Below, in pieces: positions 5,672 to 59,940 of a stretch of DNA of 64,000 nucleotides (position 1 is the stretch's first letter; each line of letters opens with the position of its first letter). Source of the stretch: Mesobacillus jeotgali (GTDB lineage: Bacteria > Bacillota > Bacilli > Bacillales > Cytobacillaceae); NCBI RefSeq assembly GCF_014856545.2, contig NZ_CP109811.1, positions 3,218,001 to 3,282,000 of the forward strand, in the 5' to 3' direction. Below the pieces are notes generated by a model. The model made no database searches and was not told the origin of the DNA. It saw nothing but the letters and a program-made list of their open reading frames with translations. The position numbers and the translations under genes were made by a program.

Positions 5672-5983
5672 TATGACGGACATTTTCTTTCGTTTTTCAA
5701 GTACTTCTGTCCGTCATGACCTGGATGACGGACACTTTCTTGCGTTTTTCATGAATTTCTGTCCATCATGACCTGGATGACGGACACTTTCTTGTGCTTT
5801 TCATGAATTTCTGTCCATCATAGCCTGGATGACGGACACTTTCTTGCGTTTTTCATGAATTTCTGTCCGTCATGACCTGGATGACGGACAATTTCTTGTG
5901 CTTTTCATGAATTTCTGTCCGTCATGACCTGGATGACGGACACTTCCTGTCGCTTTTCATGAATTTCTGTCCGTCATACATTT
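5672..5983. repeat. 52-bp tandem repeat array A (six units)
   Basis: Six units begin at 5672, 5724, 5776, 5828, 5880 and 5932, exactly 52 bp apart. Each contains ATGACGGACA and, about 25 nt later, TGTCCGTCAT. These form a 10-bp inverted repeat within the unit, and across the unit boundary with only the 7-nt linker GACCTGG between. The array fills the convergent spacer between namA and the methyltransferase, between their two terminators, so it is probably hardly transcribed. Units differ at only a few positions. Confidence 0.95.
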
Positions 5984-6016
5984 AAAATGATTTTACTAAT
6001 GCAATGGACACCACAG

Positions 6017-6046
6017 AAAAAGAGGCTGTCATCCAAACAGCCTCTT
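6017..6046 (-). terminator. Terminator of the methyltransferase gene
   Basis: AAGAGGCTG (6020-6028) pairs with CAGCCTCTT (6038-6046). On the minus strand a T run follows the stem. Confidence 0.75.
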
Positions 6047-6069
6047 CTCCATACGGGTTAATCACTTTA

Positions 6070-6688
6070 TTAGACTTTTTTCAGTAAAATTCTCCGGTAC
6101 GTATTGCCGAACATAACTCCTTCATCTGAAATCAGCCTAACTCTCGCACTTTCCGTTTGGCTGATTTCCTCAAAGGATACGCCGATGTCCGTTCCAAGCA
6201 GTTTGATTACATGCCTGAAAGCTTTTTTGACAAAAGACAGCCCTTTGCCTGGCTGTGCAAATTTATCGAAAACGACCACCAGACCTTCCTTGCGGCAAAC
6301 TCTGATCATTTCGCCAAATGCTTTTGTGCTGTCAGGTACTACTGATAAGATCAAGCTTCCGATAACATAATCGAACGATCCATCGTTAAACTCAAGCTGT
6401 TGGGCATCCATTTTTAAAAAGGTGATCGACGAGCCTTCGAATTTCTCCTTCGCTTTTTGCAGCATATCCTCCGAGTAATCAATTGCCGTAATCTCCAATT
6501 GGTCATAAGGCAATCGATCAGATATCTGCCCCAGTGCCTGCGCCTACGAACAGTACCCTGTCCCCGGAACGGAAGTGAATCTCGTTGAACAGTATATCTC
6601 TCACTTTCGAAAATGGACCAGAATTGAAAATTTTATCATAAATCGGGGCCCAGCCCTTGTAAATGAGCTTATTCCAGGAATTGTTCAT
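6070..6688 (-). pseudogene. Class I SAM-dependent methyltransferase, frameshifted
   Basis: The gene starts at ATG 6688 behind GGAGAGG. It encodes about 56 residues (MNNSWNKLIYKGW..., ending LFVGAGTGADI, the SAM-binding motif I) before a TGA at 6518-6520. The reading resumes in another frame as DRLPYDQLEITAIDYSEDML and runs to 6070 with the acidic SAM-ribose contact and a conserved Rossmann tail. One added base or two missing bases near 6515-6525 explain the break. An intact product would have about 205 residues. Its methyl acceptor is unknown; the family includes small-molecule and quinone methylases. Confidence 0.75.
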
Positions 6689-6724
6689 GATATCCTCTCC
6701 GCATGAATCAGTTATGTGTAACCT

Positions 6725-8860
6725 CTATTTATCCTTGACTCTCAAAAGCCTCAAGCCATTCAGTGTGACAATCAGAGTCGCACCCATATCGGCGAAAATC
6801 GCGATCCACAGGGTGAGCCATCCAGGAATGACCAGCAGCAGTGCCAGCAATTTCACGCCGATTGAGAAGGCGATGTTCTGCTTGATGATTGCCAGTGTTT
6901 TACGGCTCAATTTAATCGTGAACGGCAGCTTTTTCAAGTCATCTGCCATCAGGGCGATATCGGCGGTTTCGAGTGCGGTATCAGTGCCCGCTCCTCCCAT
7001 CGCGACTCCGACCGTCGCAGCGGCGAGTGCAGGTGCATCATTAATGCCATCGCCGACCATCGCGACTTTTCCATGGTTTGTCTGCAAGTCTTTTACGAAA
7101 TTAAGCTTATCTTCAGGAAGTAAATCGGATTCTATATCCGTCACACCAGCCTGGCTGCCAATCGCAGCTGCGGTGCCTTTGTTGTCACCGGTCAGCATGA
7201 TGGTCTTTTCAATGCCAAGCTCATGCAGACGGGAAACCACTTCCCTGCTCGACTCTCTTACTTCATCTGCTACCGCGATTAATGCAAGCACTTCGGAATC
7301 GTTGCCTGCAACAATGACTGTTTTACCTTCAGACTGCAGGCGTGAAATTTCTTCAGCAGCCTCCGCAGGAATTCCACCTTCGACGTGTTCTTCAAGGTAT
7401 TTAGGACTGCCGATATAATAGACAATCCCGTCAACAGTTCCTTTTAATCCTTTACCGGTTACCGATGTGAAATCTTCAATCACTTTATCCATGTACGGTA
7501 CTGTGTCTGTGTCTGCCTTTCGGACAATAGCAGAAGCAAGTGGATGCTGTGATTTATTTTCAAGGGCGGCGATTACTGCAAAAAGAGCGCTTGAATTTTC
7601 TCCAGCTGAAAATTTGATATCAGTAACAGCCGGCACTCCTTTTGTCAGCGTCCCAGTCTTATCAAAGGCAACGGCTTTCAGCATGCCCATTTCCTCAAGG
7701 TGGACACCACCCTTTACAAGCACCCCATGTTTAGCGGCATTGCCAATCGCTGTCACAATTGAAACTGGCGTTGAAATGACCAGGGCGCACGGACAGCCGA
7801 CAACCAGGACGGCCAGGCCTTGATAAATCCACTCACTCCATCCTGCACCGAAGAAAAGTGGCGGTACAATAGCAACCAAAAATGCGACAAGGATAATAAT
7901 TGGCGTGTAATACTTGGCAAAGCGATCAACAAACGCCTGCGAAGGAGCTTTTTCCGCCTGTGCCTCTTCGACAAGGTGAATGATTTTCGCGATTGTGGTA
8001 TCATCGACCAGTTTAGTGATTTTAACGTCGATGAGACCTTCCCCATTCAGCGTGCCGGCAAACACTTCATCTCCTGCGCTCTTGTCAGCTGGAACAGATT
8101 CCCCTGTAATCGCCGCCTGGTTGACAGATGAGAATCCGGAAACTACTTCCCCATCCATGGCAATTTTCTCGCCTGGTTTTACAATCATGATATCGCCGAC
8201 TTCTATTTCATTTACATGGATGCTGTATTCCCTGCCATTCCGGCGGACAAGAGCTTCTTTTGGCGCGATATCCATTAACGAACGAATCGAAGCTCTTGCC
8301 TTATCCATTGAATATCTTTCAAGGACCTCACTAATCGCAAACAATATGACAACGACGGCACCTTCGCTCCACTCGCCAATGATGGCAGCCCCGATGATTG
8401 CAACAGTCATCAGTGCCCTCATGTCAAAATCGAGCTTTAGAAGATTCTTTATTCCACTTTTAAAAAGGGAGTAGCCACCTATCATAATCGCGCCCAGAAA
8501 TAATAGGATGGCGAGCAAACTATCTTCACCAAAATTAACCTGAAAAAAATACGCGGCAATGATCATCACTAAGCTGATCAATACCGTAGCATTTTCCTGC
8601 CAGAACGGCTTCTTTTTTTCAGGGATCATCTCTGCTTTATCCGGGTAAAGGCGCAGGTTCTCAAATGCTCCAGCTTGCTCCAGTTCCTCAATCGAGGCTT
8701 TACCGAAAACAGTCAGCTTGGAAGCGCCAAAATTTACTTTTGCATCAAAAACACCATCCAGGTGTTTTACGTTCTCTTCGAACTTTCCGGCACAGCTTGC
8801 TCAGGTGAAGCCCTGTACCCGATAAACTGTTTTATCGCCCGATTGCGCTGCTTCAGTCAT
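6725..8860 (-). CDS. cadA: Cd/Zn/Pb-type P1B ATPase CadA with in-frame UGA in the HMA domain
   Basis: A membrane efflux pump for divalent soft metals. The full reading starts at ATG 8860, behind AAGGAG and overlapping the cadC stop. It has 711 codons, with TGA at codon 20 (8801-8803). That codon sits where the HMA domain should have its first Cys: GFT-[TGA]-ASCAGKF against the family's GFTCxxC. After it 57 codons, the remainder of a normal HMA domain, stay open before the next Met. Then follow the membrane domain with the CPC motif (GCPCAL), the phosphorylation site DKTGT, the SQHP motif and the hinge GDGINDAP. A shorter product could start at Met 8629 without the HMA domain, though no good ribosome binding site is evident there. 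Alternatives are a nonsense mutation, a sequencing error or selenocysteine. Confidence 0.85.
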
Positions 8861-9221
8861 TCATATCCAACTCCTTTTGATGTTCAAACGCCAGGTGAAT
8901 CAATTGCTTCACATGGTCATCCACCAGTGAATAATACACAAGCTTCCCTTCTTTGCGGTATTTAGCCAGACCAAGATTCTTCAACAGCCTTAAATGGTGG
9001 GAAGCAGTAGCAGTGGACGAATTGACGACCGCAGCTACATCACAAACACAAAGCTCTTTGCCTACATATAGTGAGTATGCGATTTTAATCCTTGTTTCAT
9101 CTGATAAAGCCTTGAAAATTTTTGCGGCTTCAAATGTATTTTGTTCTTTCAGTTCAGCGGACACCTGTTCCACTTTTTCGTCATGGACGCAATTGACCTG
9201 GCAGACATCCTGCTCCTTCAA
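8853..9221 (-). CDS. cadC: ArsR/SmtB-family metal-sensing repressor CadC
   Basis: A 122-residue winged-helix repressor that leaves DNA when it binds Cd, Pb or Zn. It has the CadC signature: an N-terminal Cys pair (DVCQVNC) and ELCVCD in the core, which together form the alpha-3N metal site. The recognition helix segment is STATASHHLRLLKNLGL, followed by the wing RKEGKLVYYSL. I prefer the TTG at 9221, 6 nt after GGGGTG, as it gives an N-terminus like plasmid CadC; ATG 9239 would add six residues but abuts the operator. Its stop overlaps the cadA start (ATGACTGA), so the two are translationally coupled and CadC controls CadA. Confidence 0.9.
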   Translation of the reverse strand: MKEQDVCQVNCVHDEKVEQVSAELKEQNTFEAAKIFKALSDETRIKIAYSLYVGKELCVCDVAAVVNSSTATASHHLRLLKNLGLAKYRKEGKLVYYSLVDDHVKQLIHLAFEHQKELDMND

Positions 9222-9239
9222 TTTGCTCACCCCATTCAT

Positions 9240-9289
9240 TCAAATGATCTTTTGATTATATCTTATTCAAATGACCTTTTGATTGTCAA
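9240..9289 (-). promoter_or_regulatory. cad promoter with two CadC operator palindromes
   Basis: Two near-identical imperfect palindromes, TCAAATGATCTTTTGA (9240-9255) and TCAAATGACCTTTTGA (9267-9282), lie 27 bp apart. On the minus strand TTGACA (9284-9289) and TAAGAT form a promoter with an 18-nt spacer, and the second palindrome lies between them. This matches the TCAAAT...TTTGA style of known CadC operators. Binding would block RNA polymerase. Confidence 0.75.
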
Positions 9290-9295
9290 ACAAAA

Positions 9296-9322
9296 ATAAA
9301 AAACCAGGAAATCTCCTGGTTT
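9296..9322 (-). terminator. Terminator after the small membrane protein gene
   Basis: AACCAGGA pairs with TCCTGGTT around AATC. On the minus strand the stem runs into a T-rich tail. Confidence 0.75.
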
Positions 9323-9328
9323 TAAAGG

Positions 9329-9613
9329 TTATGCTGTTTTCTCACCCTGCCGGTCGGCAACCTTCTTGAAGTAGAAACCTAGTTTGACGAGGCCAACTGC
9401 CGTCAAGGAAAGAATCATATTGAAGAATACTGCAAATATCACAAGATCAATGACTTCAAAGAAAAATGCATATAGAAATCCAACTGCCCCAAATATTGAT
9501 ATTGTGATGAGAAAATGCATCCTCGGAAAAAGAAAGGTTATGATTCCGCTAAACAACATAACTAGTGAACCCATGATAAATAGATGAAAACCGAATAAAA
9601 GTAAAAACTCCAA
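9329..9613 (-). CDS. Small membrane protein of unknown function
   Basis: A 94-residue protein with about three hydrophobic segments (residues about 3-28, 33-55 and 57-80) and a charged C-terminal tail ending DRQGEKTA. It starts at TTG 9613, 7 nt after GGGGG. I do not recognise the family and assign no function. It has its own terminator and stands between cadC and the histidine phosphatase on the same strand. Confidence 0.6.
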   Translation of the reverse strand: MEFLLLFGFHLFIMGSLVMLFSGIITFLFPRMHFLITISIFGAVGFLYAFFFEVIDLVIFAVFFNMILSLTAVGLVKLGFYFKKVADRQGEKTA

Positions 9614-9705
9614 AACAATTCCCCCAGTATTCGTGTTGTTGGTTTGATGGAACTGATTCCACCACTTTCCAATTCCCTCTGGGTTACTTGTCTAAACTAA
9701 ATGTC

Positions 9706-10254
9706 CTAAATTCGGTCATCCCATATTCTATTAAGCATCGTTTCTTCGTTGGAAACGACCAGTTCGAATACATCGGGATTCGTCATTTCCATCAGGCAGT
9801 CGTAACCGAAGCTTTCATTGAAATACCTCATTAGCAATGTCGTCATGTTACCATGGCTGACCAGTAAAATATGTTCATGTTCTGAACATAATAAATCCTC
9901 AATCAATGATTTGGCTCGATTCATCGCAGCAGAATGAGATTCTCCGCCTTCAAATACAAGCTCAAAATCCTCAAAGCTTTGCTTTAGCTTATCTCGCCAG
10001 TCCTCAAGGTTGACTGTACTAAGCACTCTTTCTCCAAGTCTGTCATCCTCCTGAACTCTTATCCCTCTTGAATCAGAAAGAGGTTTAATTGTATCGACCG
10101 CTCTTTTAAAAGGGCTACAATAGATGGTATCTATTTCTTTTCGTTTGAAAAAGTCCACTAGTGCCAGCGCCTGCTTCCTGCCCTGTTCGGTCAGCGGTGA
10201 GTCTACAGGCTGACCAGCCGCACTTGCATGACGTACAAGATAGATTGTTTTCAA
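9706..10254 (-). CDS. Histidine phosphatase family protein
   Basis: A 182-residue phosphoglycerate-mutase-like phosphatase. The catalytic motif near the N-terminus is LVRHASA (RHA rather than the common RHG), with the phospho-accepting His at about residue 9. The second Arg motif is in YCSPFKRAVDTI, and the distal catalytic His is in LVSHGNM. The start is TTG 10254, 6 nt after GGGGTG. It lies 17 nt downstream of rnz and is probably cotranscribed with it. The substrate is unknown; the small size suggests sugar phosphates or other small phosphomonoesters. Confidence 0.75.
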   Translation of the reverse strand: MKTIYLVRHASAAGQPVDSPLTEQGRKQALALVDFFKRKEIDTIYCSPFKRAVDTIKPLSDSRGIRVQEDDRLGERVLSTVNLEDWRDKLKQSFEDFELVFEGGESHSAAMNRAKSLIEDLLCSEHEHILLVSHGNMTTLLMRYFNESFGYDCLMEMTNPDVFELVVSNEETMLNRIWDDRI

Positions 10255-10271
10255 TCAAAACACCCCTTTAT

Positions 10272-11201
10272 TCAATCATTGTCATAAGGAACGGAGATTT
10301 CCATAAAATCTTCTGAAACAACCGTATTGGCAAACACTGTTTGTGCTTCCGCTCCAAGCTCCTTCCAGTCATTTTGGTCATACCTGGAGCTAATATGGGT
10401 CAGGCACAGCTTTTTTACATCTGCATTCAAGGCTATTTCAGCAGCCTGCAGAGTGGTCGAATGAAAATATTCAAATGCAAGTGAACCTTCATCTGCTGAA
10501 AAAGTAGCTTCATGAACGAGAAGATCTGCATTTTTGGCAAGAACTGCAGCATTTTCACAAACCCTTGTGTCACCCAAGATCGTAACAACCCTTCCTTTTT
10601 GCGGCGGACCGACAAACTCAGCAGGATCGATGACCGTTCCGTCGTCCAATATGACTTCTTCCCCATTCTTGATTTTTCTGTAGTCTGGACCGGGCTTTAC
10701 ACCTGCAGCTTGAAGCTTATCGGCAAGAAGAGTGCCGGGACGGTCCTTCTCCTTTACTCTGTACCCATACGAAGGAATTCCATGCTCCAACAGTCTTGCT
10801 TCTACGATGAATTGCTCATCTTCAAAAATAACACCTTCCTCAAGCTCAATGATTTCAATCGGATATTTCAAGTAAGATTTACTGATTTTTAAAGATATTT
10901 CAATATACTCCTTGATCCCGGGGGGACCATACACGGTAACCAATGACTCCCCTCCCTGGAAGGAACGGCTAGACAGCAGTCCCGGCAAACCATATATATG
11001 GTCTCCGTGCAGGTGAGTAATGAAAATCTTTTCAATTCTGCGGGGCTTTATGTTTGTATGTAAAATTTGGTGTTGAGTTGCTTCGCCGCAGTCGAACAGC
11101 CAAACGGCTCCGCGCTCCTCCAGCAATTTCAATGCGATTGAGGTCACATTCCTCAGTTTGGCCGGGATACCTGCACCTGTTCCAAGAAAAAAAACATCCA
11201 T
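10272..11201 (-). CDS. rnz: Ribonuclease Z
   Basis: A 309-residue tRNA 3' endonuclease that trims precursor tRNAs lacking an encoded CCA. It has the zinc-binding [10 protein letters not shown] motif (HxHxDH), a further His in [10 protein letters not shown], the flexible-arm region with its Gly/Pro-rich stretch, the metal Asp in ILGDTR, and late His residues in VHEATF and LTHISSRY. The length fits the short bacterial form. GGGAGG lies upstream of the ATG. In B. subtilis the gene (yqjK) is likewise divergent from zwf. Confidence 0.95.
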
Positions 11202-11459
11202 AATCCTGACATCCTCCCATACAAAACACCTGCCATTCTACAGGCAGGATCATTTTTCCTTTCAATATATCACAACAGGCATTATTCATCTAAACCTAAA
11301 GCAGGATTTAACCCAGAAGGGGATAGTTCCAGCCAATTGGAACAAAACTAATTACAGTTCAAACAGTTGCTAATTGTTCTTGAAAGGGATAAAATTTTGT
11401 ATTTGTAGAGTGTTTTTTATACATACTTTTAAATTCACATAAAAGAGAGGTTCTATATT

Positions 11460-12959
11460 GTGGCACAAACCGAAAAACCAACAGCCTTAATCATGATCTT
11501 CGGAGCTACGGGAGACCTGGCAAACCGTAAATTGTTTCCTTCCCTCTATAACTTGTTTAAAAAAGGAAAGCTGGACAAGTTCGCGGTCGTAGGCGTAGCC
11601 CGCCGCTCACTTTCAAATGAAGAATTCCAGCTGAGGGTAAAAGAATCTGTTAAGGTGATTGGGGAGACAGACGCTGATATCGACGAGTTCGTATCCAAGT
11701 TTTATTATCATTCCCATGATGTAACTGATTCAAGTTCTTATCTTGCGCTTGGAAAGCTTTCGGAAGATCTGGACAGCCACTATGGACTGAATGGCAATAG
11801 AATTTTCTACCTGGCAATGGCACCTGAATTCTTTGGAACAATTGCTGAGCACTTAAAGAAAGATAAACTTACCGATGTATCCGGGTTTAAGCGCCTGGTC
11901 ATTGAAAAGCCCTTCGGACATGACCTTGAGTCGGCAAAAGTATTGAACAAGCAAATCCGAACCGCTTTTACAGAGGATGAAATCTACCGAATTGACCACT
12001 ACCTTGGAAAAGAAATGGTCCAGAATATCGAAGTAATCCGTTTCGCCAATGCGCTGTTTGAACCACTCTGGAATAACCGGTACATTTCCAATATCCAGGT
12101 TACATCAAGCGAAACGCTTGGAGTGGAAGAACGCGGCCGTTATTACGAGAAAAGCGGCGCTCTAAGGGATATGGTCCAGAACCATATGCTGCAAATGGTT
12201 TCATTGCTGGCGATGGAACCGCCGATCAAATTGACGACTGATGAGGTCCGCTCGGAAAAAGTGAGAGTGTTCCGTGCCCTCCGCCCTATTAAAGGCGAGG
12301 AAGTCAATGAATATTTTGTTCGGGGCCAATATGATAAAGGCGTAATGAACGAAACAAACGTACCTGCATACCGACAGGAGGAAATGGTCGATCCTGAATC
12401 CAATACAGAAACATTTGTAGCTGGAAAATTGATGATTGATAACTTCCGCTGGGCTGGAGTTCCATTCTACATCCGTACTGGAAAAAGAATGAAGGCAAAG
12501 TCAACTAAAATCGTGATCCAATTCAAAGATATCCCAATGGATTTATATTATCAGCCAGAAAAAACGGTAAATCCAAACCTTCTTGTCATTCATATCCAGC
12601 CAGAAGAAGGAATCACCCTCCACTTGAATGCCAAGAAATCTGGCCAGGGTACGAAAGCTACACCTGTCAAGCTGAATTACTCAAATAAAGGGATTGACGG
12701 ACTGAATACTCCAGAAGCATATGAAAAACTTCTTTATGATTCATTGCGCGGAGACGCAACCAACTTTACACATTGGGATGAAGTCGCATTATCCTGGAGC
12801 TTCGTTGATAATATATCAGCTGTATGGGAAAATACGAAAGAGCCTGGCTTCCCTAACTATCCATCAGGTTCCATGGGGCCGGACGCAGCAGACAAGCTGC
12901 TAGAGAAGGATGGATTCTTCTGGTGGCCAATCACTGAAATCGATGTAGAAAATTGTTAA
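11460..12959 (+). CDS. zwf: Glucose-6-phosphate 1-dehydrogenase
   Basis: A 499-residue enzyme that oxidises glucose 6-phosphate to 6-phosphogluconolactone with NADP, the entry to the oxidative pentose phosphate pathway. The nucleotide motif is FGATGDLANRK. Substrate binding and catalysis are shown by IEKPFGHDL and the signature RIDHYLGKE, followed later by RTGKRM. The start is GTG 11460, 9 nt after AGAGAGG. It is transcribed alone and ends in a strong hairpin. gnd, the third enzyme of the pathway, lies 2 kb away on the other strand. Confidence 0.97.
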   Translation: MAQTEKPTALIMIFGATGDLANRKLFPSLYNLFKKGKLDKFAVVGVARRSLSNEEFQLRVKESVKVIGETDADIDEFVSKFYYHSHDVTDSSSYLALGKLSEDLDSHYGLNGNRIFYLAMAPEFFGTIAEHLKKDKLTDVSGFKRLVIEKPFGHDLESAKVLNKQIRTAFTEDEIYRIDHYLGKEMVQNIEVIRFANALFEPLWNNRYISNIQVTSSETLGVEERGRYYEKSGALRDMVQNHMLQMVSLLAMEPPIKLTTDEVRSEKVRVFRALRPIKGEEVNEYFVRGQYDKGVMNETNVPAYRQEEMVDPESNTETFVAGKLMIDNFRWAGVPFYIRTGKRMKAKSTKIVIQFKDIPMDLYYQPEKTVNPNLLVIHIQPEEGITLHLNAKKSGQGTKATPVKLNYSNKGIDGLNTPEAYEKLLYDSLRGDATNFTHWDEVALSWSFVDNISAVWENTKEPGFPNYPSGSMGPDAADKLLEKDGFFWWPITEIDVENC

Positions 12960-12966
12960 TAGAACA

Positions 12967-13000
12967 AAAATCCCGCCCTGGTTACAGGCGGGATTTTTTG
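12967..13000 (+). terminator. Terminator of zwf
   Basis: AAAATCCCGCC (12967-12977) pairs with GGCGGGATTTT (12987-12997), then T. It could also end transcription from the opposite strand. Confidence 0.85.
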
Positions 13001-13052
13001 CAATGTCCAATTAAGTTTCAAGTTAACGCTATTTCTCTGCCTTAATCCAAAA

Positions 13053-20431: not shown

Positions 20432-20572
20432 TGGAGTACACTCCTTTATTTTATATTCCTTCTATCACTCTAATTAATTCGGGGTGAATACTAGTGAAAC
20501 ATTCCAAGTATTATATCGGATTCTTTAGAGTCATCTTTAGGACAATTGAAGGGTTAGTGTATTTAAGTTTCA

Positions 20573-20728
20573 TGGACATTTTGACGGCCTGCTCTCTCCG
20601 AAATGTCTATTAAAACGTAGTTCTTGGACATTTTGACGGCTTGCTCCACCCCAAATGTCTATTAAAACAAGTTTCATGAACTTTAGACACCCTACTCTCT
20701 GAAATGTCTTCCAAAGTCATAATCCACA
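20573..20728. repeat. 52-bp tandem repeat array B (about three units)
   Basis: Units begin at 20573, 20625 and 20677, 52 bp apart. The first two carry GGACATTTTGACGGC and, 20 nt later, AAATGTCTATTAAAAC, giving a GACATTT/AAATGTC inverted repeat. The third is diverged. The array lies between the cheW start and the peptidase terminator. It shares a GGACAnTTTT core with arrays A, C and E, but otherwise its sequence is its own. Confidence 0.85.
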
Positions 20729-25893: not shown

Positions 25894-25997
25894 AATGTAT
25901 TCTCCTATCAGAAAAACTTAAACGTTTATAATTTGCAACCTAACTGTTCCCTCATCCAATATCAATATTGAATGCTCCTTTAACCGGAATCAATCGC

Positions 25998-26310
25998 GTT
26001 TCCTATTACCGAAAATCAATCCAAAAATGAAAAACAGGCAATGCAGCACGTTTCCTTTTACCGAAAATCAATCCAAAATTGAAAAACGGGCAATGCAGCA
26101 CGTTTCCTTTTACCGTAAATCAGTCCACAATCTAAAAACGGGTAATGCAGCGCGTTTCCTTTTACCGAAAATCAGTCCAAAATTGAAAAACGGGCAATGC
26201 AGCGCGTTTCCTTTTACCGTAAATCAGTCCAAAATTGAAAAACGGGCAATGCAGCGCGTTTCTTTGAACGAAAACCTTTCCACAATGAAAATTGGGAAAT
26301 GCAGCACATA
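25998..26310. repeat. 52-bp tandem repeat array D (six units)
   Basis: Units beginning GTTTCC(TTTTACCG) start at 25998, 26050, 26102, 26154, 26206 and 26258, exactly 52 bp apart. Each contains AATCAATCCAAAATTGAAAA and GGGCAATGCAGC. The sequence is unrelated to arrays A, B, C and E, yet the period is the same. The only inverted repeat seen is TCAAT/ATTGA. It lies between artR (beyond its likely terminator) and yqjA. Confidence 0.95.
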
Positions 26311-29626: not shown

Positions 29627-29774
29627 CGTTCGATCTCTCCTCTGCTGAAAAATAACTGGTACATAAATACATGATACCAATTAAAATAAATTTTTCAAAG
29701 TATGTTTAACTACCAGGAATTCCGGGAAAGGTAACAATACAGCTAGATCCATACCCCTAAACTCCCTAGATGAA

Positions 29775-29805
29775 GGACAACGGAACATTCCGTTGTCCGC
29801 TTTTT
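29775..29805 (+). terminator. Strong hairpin with T run on the plus strand
   Basis: GGACAACGGAA (29775-29785) and TTCCGTTGTCC (29788-29798) form a 24-bp near-perfect palindrome followed by GC and TTTTTTT on the plus strand. The genes on both sides are on the minus strand, so no obvious plus-strand gene uses it; it may shield meaB/brxB from antisense transcription. Its GGACAAC and GTTGTCC arms resemble array C units. Confidence 0.5.
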
Positions 29806-48329: not shown

Positions 48330-48483
48330 TAATCTTTATATTTAAGAATTATTCTTGTTTTTTGCTGATTTCCGTTTCTGGGATTCTCTTTCAGCACTGC
48401 TGGCGTGAGTCCACCTCGTCGTAAGCTGACACTTGCGTGATGAAATTATGATTCAGATTGATTTTAGATCTCATGGCAAAGTT

Positions 48484-48639
48484 GATGGACACTTTTTCAT
48501 GATTCTCTTCGGTTTCTGGCCGTCATACCTCCGATGATGGACACTTTTTTCCGTTTCTCTTCGAGTTCTGGCCGTCATGTCCCCGATGAAGGACACTTTT
48601 TCATGATTCTCATCGGTTTCTGTCCGTCATTCCCCGAAA
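48484..48639. repeat. 52-bp tandem repeat array E (three units)
   Basis: Units start at 48484, 48536 and 48588. GATGGACACTTTTT is followed 33 nt after GGACAC by CCGTCAT, the same internal distance as in array A, so A and E are one family 43 kb apart. It fills the spacer between spo0A and spoIVB. Confidence 0.9.
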
Positions 48640-48650: not shown

Positions 48651-48672
48651 GGCGGCTATTTGCCGCCGCCGA
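48651..48672 (-). terminator. Terminator of spoIVB
   Basis: GGCGGC (48651-48656) pairs with GCCGCC (48662-48667). On the minus strand TTTTCTTTG follows. Confidence 0.7.
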
Positions 48673-52478: not shown

Positions 52479-53319
52479 CTTCGCTAGTTTGCTTTGATTT
52501 TAGTTCATTATGCGCTGCGGTAACGACTGCTTCAGGCTGCGTCTTCAGCAGCAGTTTTCCTTTTTCCTCTGCTGTTCCGTTCCACTGCAGATGTAGCAGG
52601 AATTCAATATTGCCGTCTCCGCCAGTGATTGGCGAAAAGCTCAAATCAATCACATCATAGCCCTCTTCTATCGAAAAAGAAATGATCCTGTCCAGTACTT
52701 GTTCATGAACTTTCCTGTCACGAACAATTCCTTTTTTGCCGACCTGTTCTCTTCCTGCCTCAAATTGCGGTTTGACAAGAGCAACGATATCGCTGCCTGC
52801 TGCCAGCAGTGTTTTAAGCACAGGCAAAATAAGACGAAGGGATATGAAAGATACATCAATGCTTGCGAAATTCGGCATCCCTTTAATGAGGTCCTCTGGT
52901 TTCACATAACGGAAATTTGTTCGCTCCATCACGACGACACGTTCATCCTGACGCAGCTTCCATGCAAGCTGATTGTAGCCAACATCCAAAGCATAGGACA
53001 TTTTAGCTCCGTTTTGAAGAGCACAATCGGTAAACCCGCCGGTCGAAGCCCCGATATCCAGCAGTGTTTTCCCTTGAACATCAAGGTCAAATATCTTTAA
53101 TGCCTTTTCAAGCTTCAGTCCTCCACGGCTAACATATGGAAGGACATTTCCTTTTACAGTCAGGGGAATGTCACTGTTAACCTTTTCTCCCGGTTTGTCC
53201 AGCCGATTTTCATTCGTGTAGACGAGCCCTGCCATGATTGTCCGTTTGGCTTTCTCCCTTGTCTCCGCAAGGCCGCGTTCAACAAGCAGTACATCTAATC
53301 TTTCCTTTTTGATTTTCAT
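52471..53319 (-). CDS. tlyA: TlyA-family rRNA methyltransferase (YqxC)
   Basis: A 282-residue protein with an N-terminal S4 RNA-binding domain (ERLDVLLVERGLAETREKAKR) and an FtsJ-like methyltransferase domain with the SAM motif LLDIGASTGGFTDC and the later DVSFISLRLILPVL. In other bacteria TlyA 2'-O-methylates cytidines in rRNA and shapes capreomycin sensitivity; here the target is inferred. It begins 3 nt after the dxs stop and is the last gene of that operon. Confidence 0.9.
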   Translation of the reverse strand: MKIKKERLDVLLVERGLAETREKAKRTIMAGLVYTNENRLDKPGEKVNSDIPLTVKGNVLPYVSRGGLKLEKALKIFDLDVQGKTLLDIGASTGGFTDCALQNGAKMSYALDVGYNQLAWKLRQDERVVVMERTNFRYVKPEDLIKGMPNFASIDVSFISLRLILPVLKTLLAAGSDIVALVKPQFEAGREQVGKKGIVRDRKVHEQVLDRIISFSIEEGYDVIDLSFSPITGGDGNIEFLLHLQWNGTAEEKGKLLLKTQPEAVVTAAHNELKSKQTSEEE

Positions 53320-53322
53320 TTG

Positions 53323-55215
53323 CTACGCCCTTTTTTGTTTCTGTCTCGCAAGCTTTTGCATCCGCAAGACGACATCTTCTGTTGTCATTCCAATTTCCTC
53401 AAGAAGCTTATCGACACTGCCATGCTCAATGAATTGATCCGGTATTCCCATCCTGTCTATCTCTACATGCTGGTAGCCCAGGTCATGAGACGTCTCGAGC
53501 ACGAAGCTTCCAAATCCACCCTGCAGGACAGCTTCCTCGATGGTCAGGATCGGCATGTTATTATTCAGGATGCCCACCAGCATCTCTTCGTCAAGAGGCT
53601 TGATAAAGCGGGTATTGACTACTTTTACGGATACGCCCTGCCTTGCAAGTATTTCTGCTGCTTCCATAGCCATCGGAATCGTTGTGCCGAATGTCAGGAT
53701 GGCTGCATCTTCACCTTCACGAAGCACTTCCCAGGTACCAATCGGAATTTCCTTCAACTCTTCATCCATCGGTACACCCAGTCCATTGCCTCGAGGATAA
53801 CGCATGGCAATCGGGCCCTCATCGTATTTTATTGCAGTGTATACCATATGCTGTCCTTCATTTTCATCCTTTGGCATCATCAATACCATATTAGGCAAGT
53901 GCCTTAAAAAGGCAATGTCAAACACGCCCTGGTGTGTTTCTCCGTCAGCGCCTACGAGCCCGGCACGGTCAATACCAATGAACACATTTAAGTTCTGGCG
54001 GCAAATATCGTGGACCACCTGGTCATATGCCCGCTGCAGGAAGGTTGAATAAATCGCCAGGAATGGCTTCATATTTTGCGTCGCCAGACCGGCTGCAAAA
54101 GTCGCTGCATGCTGTTCTGCAATCCCGACATCAATCATCCGGTCAGGGAATTCGCTGGCAAAGCCTTCAAGCTTCGAACCGACAGGCATGGCCGGTGTCA
54201 CAGCAACAATCCGTTCATCGGTCCTCGCGATTTTCCTTACTGTCTCACTGACCAGCTTACTCCAGGCTGGCGGTGCGGATTCAGGTTTGACAAAATCACC
54301 AGTTTCCATCTTATAAGGTCCGGTTCCATGCCATGTGCCAATTTTATCGTTTTCAGCCGGGTTATACCCTTTGCCCTTTTTCGTAATGACATGCAATAAA
54401 ACAGGTCCTTCCTGCTTTTTTGCATATGCAAGGTTTTCAAACAGATCTTCATAATCATGTCCATCTACTGGCCCAAGATAAGTAAAGCCTAATTCCTCGA
54501 AAAAGATTCCTGATACAAAGAGATACTTTAAGCTATCCTTTATTCTTTCAGCAGTCGCCGCGAGCTGACCGCCAATAGCAGGCACCTTTTTTAACAAATA
54601 TTCGAGTTCATCTTTTACCCAATGGTACTTACCGGCAGTCCTAAGGCGGCCGAGCACACTATGCAACGCGCCCACATTTGGAGCAATCGACATTTCATTA
54701 TCATTCAAAATGACAATAAGCTTCTTTTTTTCATGGCCGATATGATTTAACGCCTCTAAAGCCATGCCTCCTGTTAGGGCGCCATCACCGATAATCGGAA
54801 CGATGTGGGAGTTTTCCCCCTTCAGGTCCCTGGCAATGGCCATCCCCATTGCAGCTGAAAGTGAAGTCGAACTATGTCCCGTTTCCCAGACATCATGCTC
54901 ACTTTCAACCATTTTCGGAAAACCGCACAGTCCTTTATGCTGCCTTAACGTGTCAAACTGACACGCTCTTCCAGTCAGGATCTTATGTACGTATGATTGG
55001 TGCCCAACGTCCCAAAGAAACTTATCCTTCGGGCTGTCAAAACACTTATGGAGAGCAATCGTCAATTCGACAACACCCAGATTAGGTCCGATGTGCCCGC
55101 CCGTAACTGATAACTTTTCAATCAAAAACTGCCGAATCTCCCCGCTTAACTCTTCCAATTCCTTAGTCGAAAGATTTTTCAAGAAGGAAGGGTCTTTTAT
55201 TGATAAAAGATCCAT
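53323..55215 (-). CDS. dxs: 1-deoxy-D-xylulose-5-phosphate synthase
   Basis: A 630-residue thiamine diphosphate enzyme that joins pyruvate and glyceraldehyde 3-phosphate, the first step of the MEP isoprenoid pathway. Key parts are [19 protein letters not shown], the ThDP motif [18 protein letters not shown] with LNDNEMSI, and [18 protein letters not shown] in the transketolase-like half. The ribosome site is weak (GAGTGG). It stands between ispA and tlyA, as in B. subtilis. Confidence 0.97.
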
Positions 55216-55573
55216 TTCGGACCACTCACTTTCATTTCTGACTTATTATTCCGCACTTTTTATCCCATAACTAAAAAAGTTGTTAGTAATAACATATATT
55301 AAGTAAAGAATGGTTTTCAAGCTATACATGGAAATATCGCTTATTTATGTAGTGTTCTATTCGTAATCGCTTATGAACTTTGAATGGATAGGATCAACAC
55401 TCCAGTTCAGAACTGTCCACATAAGGAGTCACGATACCCCTTTGAAAAACGGGTAAATGTATATGCTCGAAAAGCAGGCTCAATTCGGTTACAGCCCTAT
55501 GTAAAAAAGCTGCCAACACTACCGTGCTAACAGCCAATTATAGCACACTATCGAACTATTCTCAATGACTGCT
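55216..55573. other. Non-coding spacer between dxs and ispA
   Basis: About 360 nt without a gene I can support. On the minus strand TTGAAA near 55320 with an AT-rich stretch downstream could be a dxs promoter, but the match is poor. No strong hairpin or repeat was seen. Confidence 0.4.
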
Positions 55574-56466
55574 CTAATGATTACGCAGTCCGATTAAATC
55601 TGTGATCTGTTCAAGAATCCCCACCTCAAGACCGCTTTTGCTCAGGGATTCTTTCGCACTCCGCAATGGTAATCAAGTGCTTCTTTTGCCCCAGCCAATC
55701 CAAGCAAAGCAGGGTAAGTGCTCTTTTCGTTAGCTGTATCGCTTCCAACAGGCTTGCCGATCATTTCCTCGCTCCCTTCAAGGTCGAGAATATCATCACG
55801 TATTTGGAATGCAAGGCCAATATGGTAGGCAAATTTGGACAGTACTTGCTTTTGACCAGCAGTTGCTCCGGCTATTTCTGCTCCGGCAATGATACTGTAT
55901 TCCAGTAGCCTTCCTGTTTTATTAATATGGATATATTCAAGCTGCTCAAGTGAGAGCCTCTTATTTTCTCCTTCCATATCTGCAACTTGTCCGCCAACCA
56001 TACCGGGTGCACCAGCAGCAGCTGACAGCCCCTTGATCAACGCCAGTTTAACATGGGCTGGTGCCGATTCCTCAGGGATGTCTGCCAGCATGTTGAAACT
56101 TAATGTCAAAAGAGCATCTCCTGCAAGGATGGCAGTCGCTTCACCGAATACTTTATGGTTTGTAGGCTTGCCCCTTCTTAAATCATCATCGTCCATGCTC
56201 GGCAGGTCATCATGAATCAACGAATACGTATGGACCATTTCAATCGCCGCGGCAGCATCGACTCCATTTTGCGGATCTTTTCCAAATGAATCAATTACAG
56301 CGAATACCAGCAGCGGTCGAATCCTTTTTCCTCCAGCCTCCAGCGAATAAAGCATCGCCTTCGCAAGATTCTCCGGGGTCTCAAGGGCACCAACCGCCTC
56401 CCTTAACCGTTCCTCGAGGAGAGTTTTATATTTTATGGTAAAAGAGTCAAGTGAAACAGGATGCAA
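55574..56466 (-). pseudogene. ispA: Farnesyl diphosphate synthase, frameshifted near the C-terminus
   Basis: An enzyme that builds C15 prenyl diphosphate. The first aspartate-rich motif is in IHDDLPSMDDDDLRRG and the second is in QIRDDILDLEG. The start is TTG 56466 after GGAGG, 2 nt past xseB. At 55665-55666 one base of an A run (plus strand) seems lost, so the frame ends early at 55642. In the next frame the family's usual ending continues (RSAKESLSKSGLEVGIL, then ITDLIGLRNH) to a TAG at 55574. With the base restored it has about 297 residues. The gene supports an essential pathway, so a sequencing error is likely. Confidence 0.88.
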
Positions 56467-56468
56467 TA

Positions 56469-56702
56469 CTATTCCTCCTCATTTATGGAGAAACCTTCAG
56501 TCCGTCCATCTTCTGTAATGATCTGGGCTAGCTGTTCTTCCACATTCTTTAGCTTATCATGGCAAAGCTTGGATAATTCCATTCCTTCTTTATAAAAAGA
56601 GATCGCTTCTTCTAAAGGCACATCGCCCTCTTCCAGCTTCTCAACAATGTTTTCCAGTTGGTCCATTGCCTGTTCAAAACTTAGTTTTTTTTCATCTGCC
56701 AT
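56469..56702 (-). CDS. xseB: Exodeoxyribonuclease VII small subunit
   Basis: A 77-residue, all-helical protein ([20 protein letters not shown], then [14 protein letters not shown]) that partners XseA. ATG 56702 lies in the last codons of xseA (11-nt overlap) behind GAGGAG; a GTG nine bases earlier is less likely. Coupled translation should help to keep the high small-to-large subunit ratio. Confidence 0.94.
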
Positions 56703-58050
56703 TGTTATCACTCTCCTCGATATCTGTCACAATACATTGAATGCTTCCATCAGAAAGCTTTACATTTATTTTCCGTTCAGGTTTCACCTGGGTGACTGTC
56801 TTAATGAGTTCCCCTTCGTCTGTATATGCTAGGCTATAGCCACGGTCCATTATTTTCAGCGGGCTTAATGCTTCAAGTGTAGAAACGATACCGTTGAACT
56901 CTTTTCGTTTTTCAGACAAGACGGACGTCATTGCCCGGTTTAAAGCTCTAGTTGTCCTTATGTGTCTTTCAGCGGACAGCTTTCGCAGCTCTTCTGGGTG
57001 ACTACGTTCCAATCTCCTCTTCAGTTGAACAAGAGCATCATTTTTTGAAGCATATAGTTTCCTGGCTCCCCGGGTCAGCGATTCTGTCAGCTTGTCGACT
57101 TGTTCAAGCTTTTGCTCATACAGCTTCCTTGGATAGCGGAAAGCGTAAGACCTGATCAGACGCTGGTAGCGCTCCTGCTGGAAGAACACTTTCTCCCTCA
57201 TAGCCCTCATTAGTCTAGTTTCCCTGTTCATTACCCTTTCGATCAGTTCCTGGATATGAGGGACAGCCAATTCAGCCGCACCAGTTGGCGTCGGAGCTCT
57301 CATATCTGCAACGAAATCAGCGATGGTGAAGTCTGTTTCATGGCCCACAGCAGATATAATCGGGATTTTCGAGGCAAAAATCGCTCTTGCAACGGTTTCC
57401 TCATTGAAGTTCCAGAGTTCCTCAATCGATCCGCCTCCGCGTCCGATGATCAGAACATCAATATCTGCCCTTTCATTCGCCTTCTCGATTGCCTTCACGA
57501 TGGAAGGCCCTCCCTGGTCTCCCTGTACCAGAGCAGGAAAAATAAGCACCTTGGTAATAGGATATCTTCTCTTGATTGTCGTTAATATATCCCGGATTGC
57601 TGCCCCCGTTGGCGAAGTAACAATGCCGACGGCTTTTGGATATTTCGGAATAGGCTGCTTGTATTTCGGTAAAAAAAGGCCTTCCTGCTCAAGCTTCTTC
57701 TTCAGCTGCTCATAAGCGACAAATAAGTCACCCACTCCATCGGTTTTCATTTCTTTTATGTAAACCTGGTATTGGCCGCTGCCTTCGTAAACTGAGATAT
57801 CTCCCCTGACCAGGACCTTCATGCCATTTTCAGGCTTGAATTTCATGGATCGGGCAGCACCAGCGAACATGACAGCAAGGATTCTGGCTTTCTCATCCTT
57901 GAGAGTAAAATACATATGGCCGCTTGAATGCCTCTTAAAGTTGGAGATTTCTCCTTTAATATAAACGCCCTGAAGATGCGGGTCGGCATCGAATTTTCTC
58001 TTTATGTATTTGGTTAACGCGTTGACGGTTAGATAACGCTGATTATCCAT
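56692..58050 (-). CDS. xseA: Exodeoxyribonuclease VII large subunit
   Basis: A 452-residue nuclease subunit that degrades single-stranded DNA to oligonucleotides. An OB domain ([23 protein letters not shown]) precedes the catalytic domain with [30 protein letters not shown] and [17 protein letters not shown], then a long coiled-coil. ATG 58050 follows AAAAGGAG; the in-frame extension to 58131 has no site. First gene of the coupled xseA-xseB-ispA set. Confidence 0.96.
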
Positions 58051-58188
58051 TGGTAAACTCCTTTTGTGGAACATGTCAGTATCAAAAAAACTGCCCATAT
58101 CCATTATAAGTTTAGAATCCCGATTCGTCACTTAAGATAAGTGGATTTTCAGTTTCTAACTTATAACAAATATGGACAGAATCACGCC

Positions 58189-59061
58189 TTATAAATTTGA
58201 ATTTTGAAGTCTGTTCATATGATTCTTTGCAGACTTCAGGGTGTTGTACATCAACATGGCAATGGTCATTGGGCCAACACCGCCAGGCACAGGAGTGATA
58301 TACCCGGCTTTTTCTTTGACTTCATCATAGGCTACATCACCGCAAAGCTTTCCAAGGTCATTGCGGTTCATGCCAACATCGATGACCACAGCGCCTGGCC
58401 TGATATGGTCAGCTGTAATCAAGTCGGCTTTCCCGACTGCGGCTACAATGACATCTGCCTGTTTCGTGTGTTCCTTTAAGTCTTTTGTCCTCGAGTGACA
58501 ATATGTAACGGTTGCGTTTTCGTTCAGGAAAAGTTGACCTGCCGGTTTGCCGACAATATTGCTCCTGCCAACAACGACCACATGCTTCCCGGAAAGATCC
58601 ATCTCGATCTCCTTCATCATGACCATTACACCATATGGCGTGCATGGTAAAAAAGCATCCTGGCCAGTCATCATCCTGCCGATATTGATTGGATGGAAGC
58701 CATCAACATCTTTTTCAGGGGAAATAGCTTCAATCAGGTTCTTTTCACTGATATGCTCTGGAAGCGGAAGCTGCACTAAAATACCGTGAATATCCTCATC
58801 CTTGTTGAGTTCGTCTATTTTTGCCAGCAACTCTTGCTCGGTAATGGAGACAGGGTACTCTATCAGGACATTATGCATACCAAGTTCTCTTGCCGTTTTT
58901 TGCTTACTGTTAACATACGTTCTCGATGCCTGGTTATCACCGACAAGAATCACTGCCAGGCCTGGAGTTACTCCCTGCTTTTTTAGCTCCTGGACCTGGT
59001 CGGCGATTTCGAGTTTTTTCTTTTTGGCAATTTCTTTTCCATCAATAATAATAGCAGCCAT
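58189..59061 (-). CDS. folD: Bifunctional methylenetetrahydrofolate dehydrogenase/cyclohydrolase
   Basis: A 290-residue enzyme that interconverts 5,10-methylene- and 10-formyl-tetrahydrofolate with NADP, feeding purine and fMet-tRNA synthesis. It has [14 protein letters not shown] (catalytic Lys), [22 protein letters not shown] and [18 protein letters not shown], then [22 protein letters not shown] precedes the ATG. It follows nusB by 54 nt. Confidence 0.96.
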
Positions 59062-59115
59062 ACTTTCTCCCCCTATATGATCAGGGAAGGTCCAACCTGC
59101 CTGCTTCCAATGGTT

Positions 59116-59508
59116 TTAGGAAATACTCTGCTTTACTTTAGACAGAACACCATTAATAAATCGGCTTGATTGGTCATCCCCATATAATTTAGCAATTTCG
59201 ATCGCTTCATCAAGAACGACATTCATCGGTACCTCTTCGTTGCAATACTTCAATTCGTATACAGCCAGTCGAAGAAGATTCCGGTCAACAGCTGCTAGTC
59301 GGTCGAGGGACCACTTTTCCAGGTATACCTTGATCTCCTCATCAATTTCCTGCTGGTGCTGGACAGTGCCGTTCACAAGCTTGTTCAGATAATCATCCCC
59401 GGCTTCTTCTTCAAGCACATGCTCAATCGCGTCAGAAACTTCCACCTTGCTTATATCAATCTGGAATAAGGCTTGTAATGCCTTTTCTCGTGCTGTTCTT
59501 CTTTTCAT
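59116..59508 (-). CDS. nusB: Transcription antitermination factor NusB
   Basis: A 130-residue helical RNA-binding protein that, with NusE (S10), binds boxA in rRNA leaders and supports rRNA antitermination. It starts MKRRTAREKALQALFQIDIS and ends with VVLDEAIEIAKLYGDDQSSRFINGVL, the family signature. GGAGCTAAGG precedes the ATG. Confidence 0.96.
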   Translation of the reverse strand: MKRRTAREKALQALFQIDISKVEVSDAIEHVLEEEAGDDYLNKLVNGTVQHQQEIDEEIKVYLEKWSLDRLAAVDRNLLRLAVYELKYCNEEVPMNVVLDEAIEIAKLYGDDQSSRFINGVLSKVKQSIS

Positions 59509-59699
59509 TTAATTCCTTAGCTCCTTTACGGCTTGTCTGATTCTAACAAAATAATAGCATATCATATCTATTTACGCATGATTTCCTATTATTTTTCACT
59601 TTTTAGAAAAAAGTTAATCAAAACAAAAGAAAATATCTCATATAAGCTAAGAATTTCAGATATCAGAATTGGTGCAGGAAGTGTTTTTGACAGCTTTTG

Positions 59700-59940
59700 C
59701 AGGAGAACTCAAGATTTTGTCCGAACTTGAATCTACTACGGACAACTTTTCCTCTCCAGCACGAGTTTTTGTCCGAACTTGGGACTACTTCGGACAACTT
59801 TTCCCCTTCTGCGCGAGATTTTGTCCGAACCTGGGTCATCTTCGGACAACTTTTCCTCTCCAGCACGAGATTTTGTCCGAACCCGGGGCGTACTAAGGCA
59901 ATCTTCTTCTTAAAACCATGAAACTTTGTCCGAACCCGTA
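59700..59940. repeat. 52-bp tandem repeat array C (five units)
   Basis: TGTCCGAAC occurs at 59719, 59770, 59822, 59874 and 59927, spaced 51, 52, 52 and 53 bp. In the inner units TTGTCCGAA and TTCGGACAA form a 9-bp inverted repeat around an 11-nt loop; the linker is CTTTTCC...CACGAGATTT. It lies between nusB and the terminator of yqhY. Confidence 0.92.

Follow-up and report, generated by a model that had tools for sequence, protein, structure and literature searches.

Tandem 52-bp arrays of Mesobacillus share an inverted half-site layout and point with replication

Five tandem arrays of differing sequence and one unit length lie in spacers of a 64,000-nt stretch of the Mesobacillus jeotgali chromosome (NZ_CP109811.1; the whole stretch is called the window), which raises the question of what these units have in common besides their length. 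The initial annotation knew of no described element class of fixed length and free sequence; such a class is, however, in print. Subirana and Messeguer (2021) reported Bacillus satellites whose length is constant at 52 nt while their sequence varies, listed B. selenatarsenatis with 82 repeats, 49 of which measure 51-53 nt, and left these satellites as an enigma of constant size with no conserved sequence and no known function (PMC8161180). B. selenatarsenatis is a close relative of this Mesobacillus. The arrays share with those satellites the length of 51-53 nt (all five window arrays and 31 of 106 TRF rows in 864 kb), several non-coding families of differing sequence in one genome, a Firmicutes host with partial conservation between relatives (Mesobacillus), an accompanying 20-21 class, and short motifs found with their reverse in one repeat. 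The published search had a cut-off of four repeats, below which arrays B, E and C fall while A and D, with six units, do not; this cut-off is operational, not biological. No fixed geometry, orientation or helical phase of AT steps is given for the 52 class in PMC8161180, whose whole text has no hits for "orientation", "palindrom" or "spacing". Among the papers that literature searches listed, none was seen to describe the orientation or a fixed geometry of these repeats, although the same authors' J Bacteriol 2020 paper may contain some of this.

TRF returned six rows for the window, five of them with period 52, and the coordinates agreed with those first noted (Table 1). All five arrays are non-coding and located in spacers between named genes. 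A position next to terminators had also been described, and a terminator-like hairpin was found near each array, these being pattern matches only, with 0.3-0.6 expected per region. The hairpin of spoIVB, an example of the setting, has a counterpart of similar sequence in the corresponding position in most of the relatives displayed (by eye). The genome sample of 864 kb consisted of the window and 40 stretches of 20 kb at even spacing. Among the 106 TRF rows, some of them overlapping, 31 had periods of 52-53, 25 of 20-21, 14 of 40-41 and 9 of 104/156, with the other 27 spread over other periods; the period histogram that had been proposed as a check thus peaks at 52, and also at 20-21. Unit length was 52 in 365 of 418 spacings (pairs more than 58 bp apart dropped) and differed from 52 in 53. 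Per 604-kb bin, 30 arrays were distributed as 6, 1, 3, 5, 2, 7, 5 and 1, the window itself supplying five of the seven, and no gradient toward the terminus was evident in these 30 arrays (low power).

Table 1. Arrays and neighbouring hairpins in the window (positions from the first letter of the window)
Feature	Position	Strand	Copies and setting	Unit layout	Dyad cores	Source
Array A	5660..5977	-	6.1 copies, 90% match	TGTCC-N17-GGACA-N25, read on - strand (leading-strand sense here)	5708-5734, 5760-5786, 5812-5838, 5864-5890, 5916-5942	TRF
Array B	20569..20668	-	1.9 copies + decayed flanking units	TGTCC-N17-AGACA-N25	20604-20630, 20656-20682 (second: left arm decayed); further decayed core 20552-20578	TRF
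Array D	25997..26307	-	6.0 copies, decayed copies at both ends	GGTAA-N17-TGCCC-N25	26036-26062, 26088-26114, 26140-26166, 26192-26218; decayed one 26244-26270	TRF
Array E	48483..48637	-	3.0 copies; spacer between spoIVB and spo0A	TGTCC-N17-GGCCA-N25	48517-48543, 48569-48595	TRF
Array C	59712..59882	-	3.3 copies; between nusB and Asp23-family gene; decayed copies to about 59950 (by eye)	TGTCC-N17-GGACA-N25	59718-59744, 59770-59796, 59822-59848	TRF
Terminator-like hairpin near A	5597-5621	+				pattern scan
Terminator-like hairpin near B	20794-20780	-				pattern scan
Terminator-like hairpin near D	26359-26331	-				pattern scan
Terminator-like hairpin of spoIVB, beside E	48651..48670	-				pattern scan
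Terminator-like hairpin near C	60021-59988	-				pattern scan

We found that one skeleton, a 5-bp left arm, N17, an inverted 5-bp right arm and N25, fits nearly all of 77 arrays of several arm types from sampled parts of one chromosome, the five window arrays included. The sequence is not free, contrary to what had been thought: half-sites are conserved and loops variable, and array D, said earlier to share nothing obvious with the others, has the common layout. When outer spans were scanned, perfect inverted 5-bp arms stood at span 27 in 38 of 66 exact-52 units, versus a shuffle mean of 2.3 (maximum 7), with even spans at background; after clustering (<60% identity) they were present in 7 of 14 (shuffle mean 0.5, maximum 3). 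Species whose arms are different show this geometry too. In 27 published consensus units of other species, a few of them near-duplicates, odd spans of 17-31 summed to 47 and even spans of 18-30 to 5, which is the same odd-centred dyad as in Mesobacillus. Substitution between adjacent exact units (276 pairs) was 0.050 and 0.055 in the arms versus 0.146 and 0.162 in the loops, an approximately threefold difference, and conservation within the unit took the form of two boxes, each about 15 bp long. Along each array both loops repeat alike; the linker of array D is purine-poor (0.32). Array ends cluster at half-sites, though not strictly, as 24 of 66 ends and 11 of 66 starts lay outside the two main phase clusters. 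Arm pairs covary clearly, and their mismatches are symmetric (G-T 72 versus A-C 79 cells in pairs 1-5; 59 versus 58 events in pairs 1-9), without an RNA-type G-U preference on either strand, as expected of a double-stranded DNA site. In loop pairs 10-13, which need not pair, A-C outnumbered G-T by 324 to 147, equivalent to G-U on the head-on strand.

The idea that 52 bp represents five helical turns gained direct support from WW dinucleotides, which in the 66 units have a 10.4-bp periodicity (power ratio 2.65, z 12.6), against a ratio of 1.35 in intergenic windows; 18 units published for other species gave 2.53 (z 6.3). Within a unit, AT dinucleotides return every 10.4 bp, about five times in all. 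The GGTAA family, to which array D belongs, is without this harmonic (ratio 1.02) and has its peak at the sixth (3.3). Exact helical phasing finds no backing in the 20-21 class, since the mean spacing of that class is 20.2-20.3 bp and not 20.8 (two turns of 10.4), and an argument for phasing from that class was rejected.

In Mesobacillus the arrays point the way the chromosome is copied. Orientation of the largest family followed replication at 30 of 30 places among those listed and, by family search, at 20 of 20 and 14 of 14 in two relatives. Genes were inspected at the flanks of the window arrays and beside arrays between lagging genes, and the orientation held even with the genes on both sides directed against the fork: the leading strand was still purine-rich in 7 of 7 arrays that have a lagging-strand ORF on either side (Pfam supports both neighbours in three, that at 1287642 being ambiguous when judged by family match; in the other four it supports one neighbour or just the next gene). 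A mere effect of gene direction was rejected on the basis of these seven. By BLAST, the beta family agreed with replication at 16 of 17 places, the exception being a 31-nt match inside the palindrome, while two weak rows of opposite sense fall within an array that agrees; the gamma family agreed at 6 of 9, disagreed at two, both with symmetric arms, and was mixed at one (2068-2070 kb taken as one). Judged by arm asymmetry, arrays whose right arm is TGCCC agreed in 12 of 12 cases. The polarity is not a universal rule, because it fails in the distant family f36, where the three arrays of genome G227 split two to one in direction (by eye) and the leading strand is purine-rich in only 4 of the 7 arrays of G216. 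Neither is it a property of all tandem repeats, as the 20-21 class is mixed (eight leading, six lagging among 14 arrays with three cores). Coverage was detailed, through samples, for one genome; two more were covered by family search and one by four arrays, and the other family by two contig-level genomes. The initial annotation did not mention replication polarity.

We tentatively favour the reading that the arrays are phased sites for a putative dimeric DNA-binding protein, which in Mesobacillus also mark direction. The unit would be a double-stranded DNA element of about five helical turns with two inverted half-sites at fixed spacing, each of about 15 bp with a core of TGTC/GACA or GGTNA/TGCCC, in effect a 27-bp dyad plus a 25-bp linker. 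Tandem units would set half-sites and AT-rich steps in register along one helical face, where a dimeric protein could bind co-operatively or wrap the DNA along the array. Mesobacillus would keep or place its arrays in one orientation relative to replication, and the complex would also mark direction for the fork, a translocase or a condensin. Copy number changes in steps of a whole unit, which fits slippage or unequal exchange. As read from the sequence, the geometry, the conservation of half-sites versus variable loops, the 10.4-bp phasing and the polarity are features of the arrays themselves. Protein could bind them, polymerise on them or wrap them, and could give the polarity its purpose. 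The clustering of array ends at half-sites and the lack of solitary units in 864 kb also speak for this reading. Against it stand the loss of polarity in f36, the purine-poor linker of array D and the missing harmonic of its family, the mean spacing of the 20-21 class, the A-C excess in loop pairs 10-13, the array ends that lie outside the main clusters and the dispensability of single arrays. Because the families of a single genome have different arms, no single sequence-specific protein can account for all of them, and several paralogues or shape reading would be needed to serve all arm types. A broader and somewhat unlikely proposition is that 52-nt Bacilli satellites form one structural class (inverted half-site boxes, five-turn unit, AT steps in phase), serving in Mesobacillus, and perhaps Cytobacillus, as chromosome-wide signposts of replication direction that are independent of gene direction and bound by a putative architectural protein. 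Shared geometry, 10.4-bp AT phase and genus polarity turn a published enigma into concrete tests: a protein, if found, would make the arrays a new architectural or directional mark on bacterial chromosomes, and if there is none they would be a clean case of replication-coupled satellite evolution in bacteria.

It is rather unlikely that the arrays are neutral satellites, that is, an ancestral 52-bp family spread in the lineage and expanding by slippage or unequal exchange with no host function, its dyad kept by hairpin-templated correction on the lagging-strand template, which would also yield polarity. Changes by whole units, higher-order periods of 104/156 and families of related sequence spread across loci are consistent with this. 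At one orthologous spacer seven units were found in L102 and two in L103, with none seen in L104, L106, L108, L110 and L111, and 52-bp arrays were present in 6 of 80 orthologous loci, with differing copy number. This comparison among relatives, which had been suggested at the outset, indicated that the special fixed-step expansion once considered is not needed for length constancy within an array, because expansion copies whole units. Since presence at a locus varies among close relatives, single arrays are dispensable. However, neutrality does not sit well with the slower change of the arms or with the recurrence of the geometry in species with other arms. Moreover, nearby non-coding DNA had 475 substitutions to 61 indels (five overlapping comparisons), while adjacent unit pairs differ by about seven substitutions per pair versus 53 of 418 units off 52, so that indels look under-represented in arrays. 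Solitary remnants were not found in 864 kb with profile models of two arm types, which may miss some single units: 143 of 145 hits were in or beside arrays and the other two were weaker than E 0.1.

Quite unlikely, too, is that each array holds weak intrinsic terminators which stop transcription running against the fork. Read opposite to the leading strand, the dyad would be a hairpin with a T-rich stretch behind it, complementary to the purine-rich linker, and the array would block head-on read-through, which would explain a polarity independent of neighbouring genes. At least five T in the 9 nt after the hairpin were present in 33 of 66 units head-on versus 6 of 66 co-directionally; the scan flagged A and E units on the + strand, the head-on sense here; and arrays were enriched in convergent-gene spacers (11 of 30 unbiased arrays versus 67 of 408 spacers of at least 100 bp, by crude ORF calls). 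The core MFE was at or below -6 kcal/mol in 39 of 66 units head-on and 34 of 66 co-directionally, but 27 of 66 head-on cores were weaker than that, several gamma and zeta arrays have the T run on the co-directional side, and the arms are without G-U preference. Termination would leave the constant length of the 25-bp linker and the 10.4-bp AT phase unexplained.

That the arrays yield structured small RNAs or RNA sponges, as Subirana and Messeguer suggested, we consider improbable. These authors report satellite transcription in B. coagulans RNA-seq (PMC8161180, PMC8625621), and the 27-nt cores are more stably folded than their mononucleotide shuffles (median z of -2.0 in the co-directional and -2.65 in the head-on sense). 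However, this reading was demoted because the types of arm mismatch are symmetric despite clear covariation; a 25-nt loop would need no fixed length, the arrays keep to the direction of replication even when the genes on both sides point against it, and no Rfam family lies over the window arrays at gathering threshold, the only match being sbrA, elsewhere in the window. REP/BIME elements with RAYT transposases resemble the arrays in being intergenic palindromes, some in tandem, and a transposase of the REP/IS200-IS605 kind uses the lagging-strand template as its substrate. Such a single-strand mobile element, forming arrays by tandem insertion and polar through its transposase, would suit the inverted arms, the polarity in the genus and the one Y1_Tnp gene in the genome, but is very improbable and was rejected, as no solitary copies were found (none beyond the arrays at E < 0.1 across 864 kb), the palindrome next to the Y1_Tnp gene is a GC-rich one that does not resemble the units (by eye), and the arms are too variable for one transposase.

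Among known systems, Borg tandem repeats differ in being archaeal and often within ORFs (43-65% of repeats), and the consulted portion of PMC9879509 does not mention a fixed unit length. CRISPR arrays are similar in having palindromic parts and spacers in register, but here both parts of the unit repeat alike and spacers are not unique. The FtsK/SpoIIIE orienting motifs KOPS and SRS are purine-rich, polar with replication, short and dispersed. The Mesobacillus arrays are likewise purine-rich and replication-polar, with one orientation at the genus level and not in f36, whereas their units are 52-bp tandem dyads. In sopC-type plasmid centromeres, tandem units of equal length carry an inverted repeat for a dimeric protein that binds co-operatively. 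The arrays resemble sopC in repeating a unit of constant length that contains an inverted repeat, and differ from it in number and variety, with 77 arrays of several arm types in sampled parts of one chromosome.

TRF analysis of the whole window confirmed five tandem arrays with a common 52-bp period, the sole remaining row being a 12-bp doublet. In line with the initial annotation, which placed the arrays next to terminators, a pattern scan found a terminator-like hairpin close to each. None of the flanking genes was unusual: they were namA, a methyltransferase-like ORF, a CheW-like ORF, a PepT-like peptidase, a GlnQ-like ATPase, spo0A, spoIVB, nusB, an Asp23-family gene, and an aromatic acid exporter. 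The genome was sampled by 40 stretches of 20 kb at even intervals, together with the window (864 kb total), and the expected peak at 52 was found: 31 of 106 TRF rows had a period of 52 or 53 (20/21, 25; 40/41, 14; 104/156, 9; all remaining periods, 27). Merging overlaps left 30 arrays of the 52 class, and 47 more came from regions picked by array-family match, a biased set, giving 77. The 52-bp arrays belong to a satellite class already in print, contrary to the initial annotation, which knew of no such class. Among Bacillus satellites, 1886 of 4029 have a 51-53 repeat of variable sequence, with short characteristic motifs whose reverse often lies within the same repeat, and nucleoid protein binding or small RNAs were proposed as functions; in B. 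selenatarsenatis, 49 of the 82 satellites are 51-53 nt long (PMC8161180). The words orientation, palindrom, and spacing are absent from that paper, and replication occurs once, on the second satellite class of 20-21 bp. Satellite transcription is reported for B. coagulans (excerpt of PMC8625621).

Features of the window and of sampled loci in the host genome (G000)
Feature	Position	Strand	Arm kind or remark
Array A	window 5660-5977	-	TGTCN/NGACA
Array B	window 20569-20668	-	TGTCN/NGACA
Array D	window 25997-26307	-	GGTNA/TGCCC
Array E	window 48483-48637	-	TGTCN/NGCCA
Array C	window 59712-59882	-	TGTCN/NGACA
Rfam sbrA match (RF01489, Listeria sRNA)	window 29737-29805	+	63.3 bits vs gathering 45
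Sole Y1_Tnp match in genome	G000:C1:4307853-4308179 (L021)		192-aa frame
9-bp repeat	L025 (G000:C1:360001-380000)		172 copies (TRF)
Mutator-family transposase gene	L068 (G000:C1:1071979-1074878)		flanked by two alpha arrays, 4.2 and 24.4 units

The 66 consensus units whose length is exactly 52 bp were scanned at every span for perfect inverted arms. Five-base arms at an outer span of 27 occurred in 38 units (shuffles: mean 2.3, max 7), and in 7 of 14 units after clustering below 60% identity (mean 0.5, max 3). Arms were present in 22 to 38 units at odd spans 17 to 29 versus 0 to 5 at even spans 18 to 30, indicating that the dyad centre is a base. In 27 published consensus units from other species, a few of them near-duplicates, the counts were 47 at odd and 5 at even spans. 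Once rotated, nearly all 77 arrays fitted left arm(5)-N17-right arm(5)-N25, so that the sequence is not free as had been claimed, and array D, said to share nothing obvious with the others, fits this layout with GGTNA/TGCCC arms. The arm kinds were TGTCN/NGACA (or NGCCA), GGTNA/TGCCC with variants, and GGGTA/TACCC; these motifs were chosen by eye from the same arrays, and the span scan is independent of them. Four of the 77 arrays lacked an arm motif; three (601473, 3868381, and 3905744) were placed via dyad search, and the fourth, the 51-nt consensus of array 2068894, did not fit. Besides it, a few consensus units of 51 nt, including that of E, were one base short in a loop, and single E units have N17.

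Between adjacent exact units (276 pairs), per-site difference was 0.050 and 0.055 in the arms and 0.146 and 0.162 in the loops; by position, two conserved boxes of ~15 bp each were separated by variable loops of 8 and 14 bp. With array 601473 and all pairs more than 58 bp apart left out, unit spacing was 52 in 365 of 418 cases (51, 26; 53, 18; other, 9). Nearby non-coding DNA of relatives showed 475 substitutions versus 61 indels in five pairwise comparisons with sequences common between them. AT-AT dinucleotide power at the fifth harmonic (10.4 bp) was raised in the 66 units (ratio 2.65, z 12.6, phase concentration 0.95) and weaker at the sixth (1.37), the excess being chiefly at the fifth. 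The ratio was 2.75 (z 4.0) in five family consensus units, 2.53 (z 6.3) in 18 published units, and 2.28 (z 4.9) in the 14 without TGTC-GACA. Intergenic control windows gave a weaker signal (1.35, z 7.0, n 300), and neither coding windows (0.96) nor the GGTAA family, D included (1.02), had a 10.4-bp excess. The five-turn idea was thus supported by the phase of the 52-bp units, except in D's GGTAA family.

Arm mismatch types were symmetric, G-T versus A-C being 72 versus 79 cells (pairs 1-5) and 59 versus 58 events (pairs 1-9); at loop pairs 10-13, where pairing is not needed, A-C outnumbered G-T by 324 to 147. Conserved half-sites, symmetric mismatch types in the arms, AT phase, and a spacing that stays fixed while the loops vary fit a double-stranded site array better than an RNA. 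We therefore tentatively favour a phased array for a putative dimeric DNA-binding protein, in which each unit would be a double-stranded site and tandem units would set these sites in phase. The main rival, from anatomy, is that each array is a run of weak terminators acting against head-on transcription: 33 of 66 units had a T-rich tail in the head-on sense versus 6 in the opposite sense, and arrays were enriched between convergent genes (11/30 versus 67/408). We consider this unlikely. It is also possible that the arrays are neutral satellites.

The G000 chromosome is 4.84 Mb with dnaA at base 22, the window being G000:C1:3218001-3282000, and GC skew changed sign between the sampled stretches at 2.52-2.54 and 2.64-2.66 Mb. 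Setting the replication switch at 2.60-2.62 Mb puts the window on the left arm, where the leading-strand sense is that of the minus strand. Among the BLAST matches listed (part of 201; 40 of 68 candidate places scored), alpha, the largest family, was plus at 20/20 places on the right arm and minus at 10/10 on the left (30/30). Agreement with replication was 16/17 places for the beta family and 6/9 for gamma (BLAST). All 12 G000 arrays with a TGCCC right arm agreed and none was reversed. In two other genomes, 20/20 and 14/14 places, among matches listed, fitted a single switch opposite dnaA, and in G028 the asymmetric GGTNA/TGCCC arms alone oriented 14/14 places (all its matches). Leading-strand linker purine share exceeded 0.5 in 26/30 unbiased and 42/47 targeted arrays (baseline, 55.5% of 328 intergenic 25-mers), D being an exception (0.32). 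A crude ORF caller counted 855 leading versus 325 lagging genes; all seven arrays between two lagging ORFs were purine-rich on the leading strand, three with Pfam support for both neighbours. In C. oceanisediminis, 4/4 arrays had their purine-rich side on the leading strand, and in the distant family f36 orientation was mixed. Polarity thus characterizes the genus Mesobacillus, perhaps also Cytobacillus, and not the whole 52-nt class.

The exact pattern TGTC-N19-GACA-N25-TGTC-N19-GACA occurred in 6 of 299 genomes: 356, 506, and 346 times in G000, G003, and G028, and 48, 27, and 1 times in three genomes that belong to a different family within the class; its backward control gave 0. Of the 21 genomes in the genus, 20 contained two copies of GGTNA-N17-TGCCC in register. 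With 1 to 20 stretches sampled per genome, 52-bp arrays were found in 4 of 11 other genomes (G216, G227, G376, and G379; the G216 and G227 stretches chosen partly at already known arrays) and not in the other seven.

Array starts (n=66) fell mid-dyad in 31 cases and at the left box in 24, and ends (n=66) directly after the left arm in 28 and at the right arm in 14; linker phases 28-43 or 28-47 held 5 starts and 10 ends. A search of the 864 kb with models of two arm types found no unit standing alone: 143 of its 145 matches lay within or next to arrays, and E was at least 0.1 for the remaining two. Unit copy number, which the initial annotation had proposed comparing among strains, varied among relatives downstream of spoIVB from none seen to seven: seven in locus L102, two in L103, about three in L107, one plus a decayed copy in L105, and none seen in L104, L106, L108, L110, or L111. 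Arms were kept and linkers differed. Host SpoIVB shared 99% identity with its counterpart in Bacillus sp. ISL-41 and 96% with the Mesobacillus selenatarsenatis protein, which makes the host a Mesobacillus. Relatives of array C lay at the matching end of L104, L106, and L108.

At the position where relatives have array E, the L106 spoIVB-spo0A spacer holds, by eye, a GC-rich sequence that includes CCGGGG blocks and GGAAAGCGAAGCGCCTGGAACG. Degraded pieces resembling it seemingly lie beside arrays in L102 and perhaps at about 48380-48480 of the window, as though the spacer also housed a second dispersed element. A GC-rich palindrome, seen by eye, adjoins the Y1_Tnp gene, and the two are probably a REP/RAYT pair. 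At a mean spacing of 20.2-20.3 bp (20 arrays), the 20-21 class does not match the length of two 10.4-bp turns. In sampled stretches L024-L061 some of these satellites step 20,20,20 and others alternate 20 and 21; their cores include TTCGCTATA, TATTGGCGA, and TTTGCGAAT, and their orientation relative to replication is mixed.
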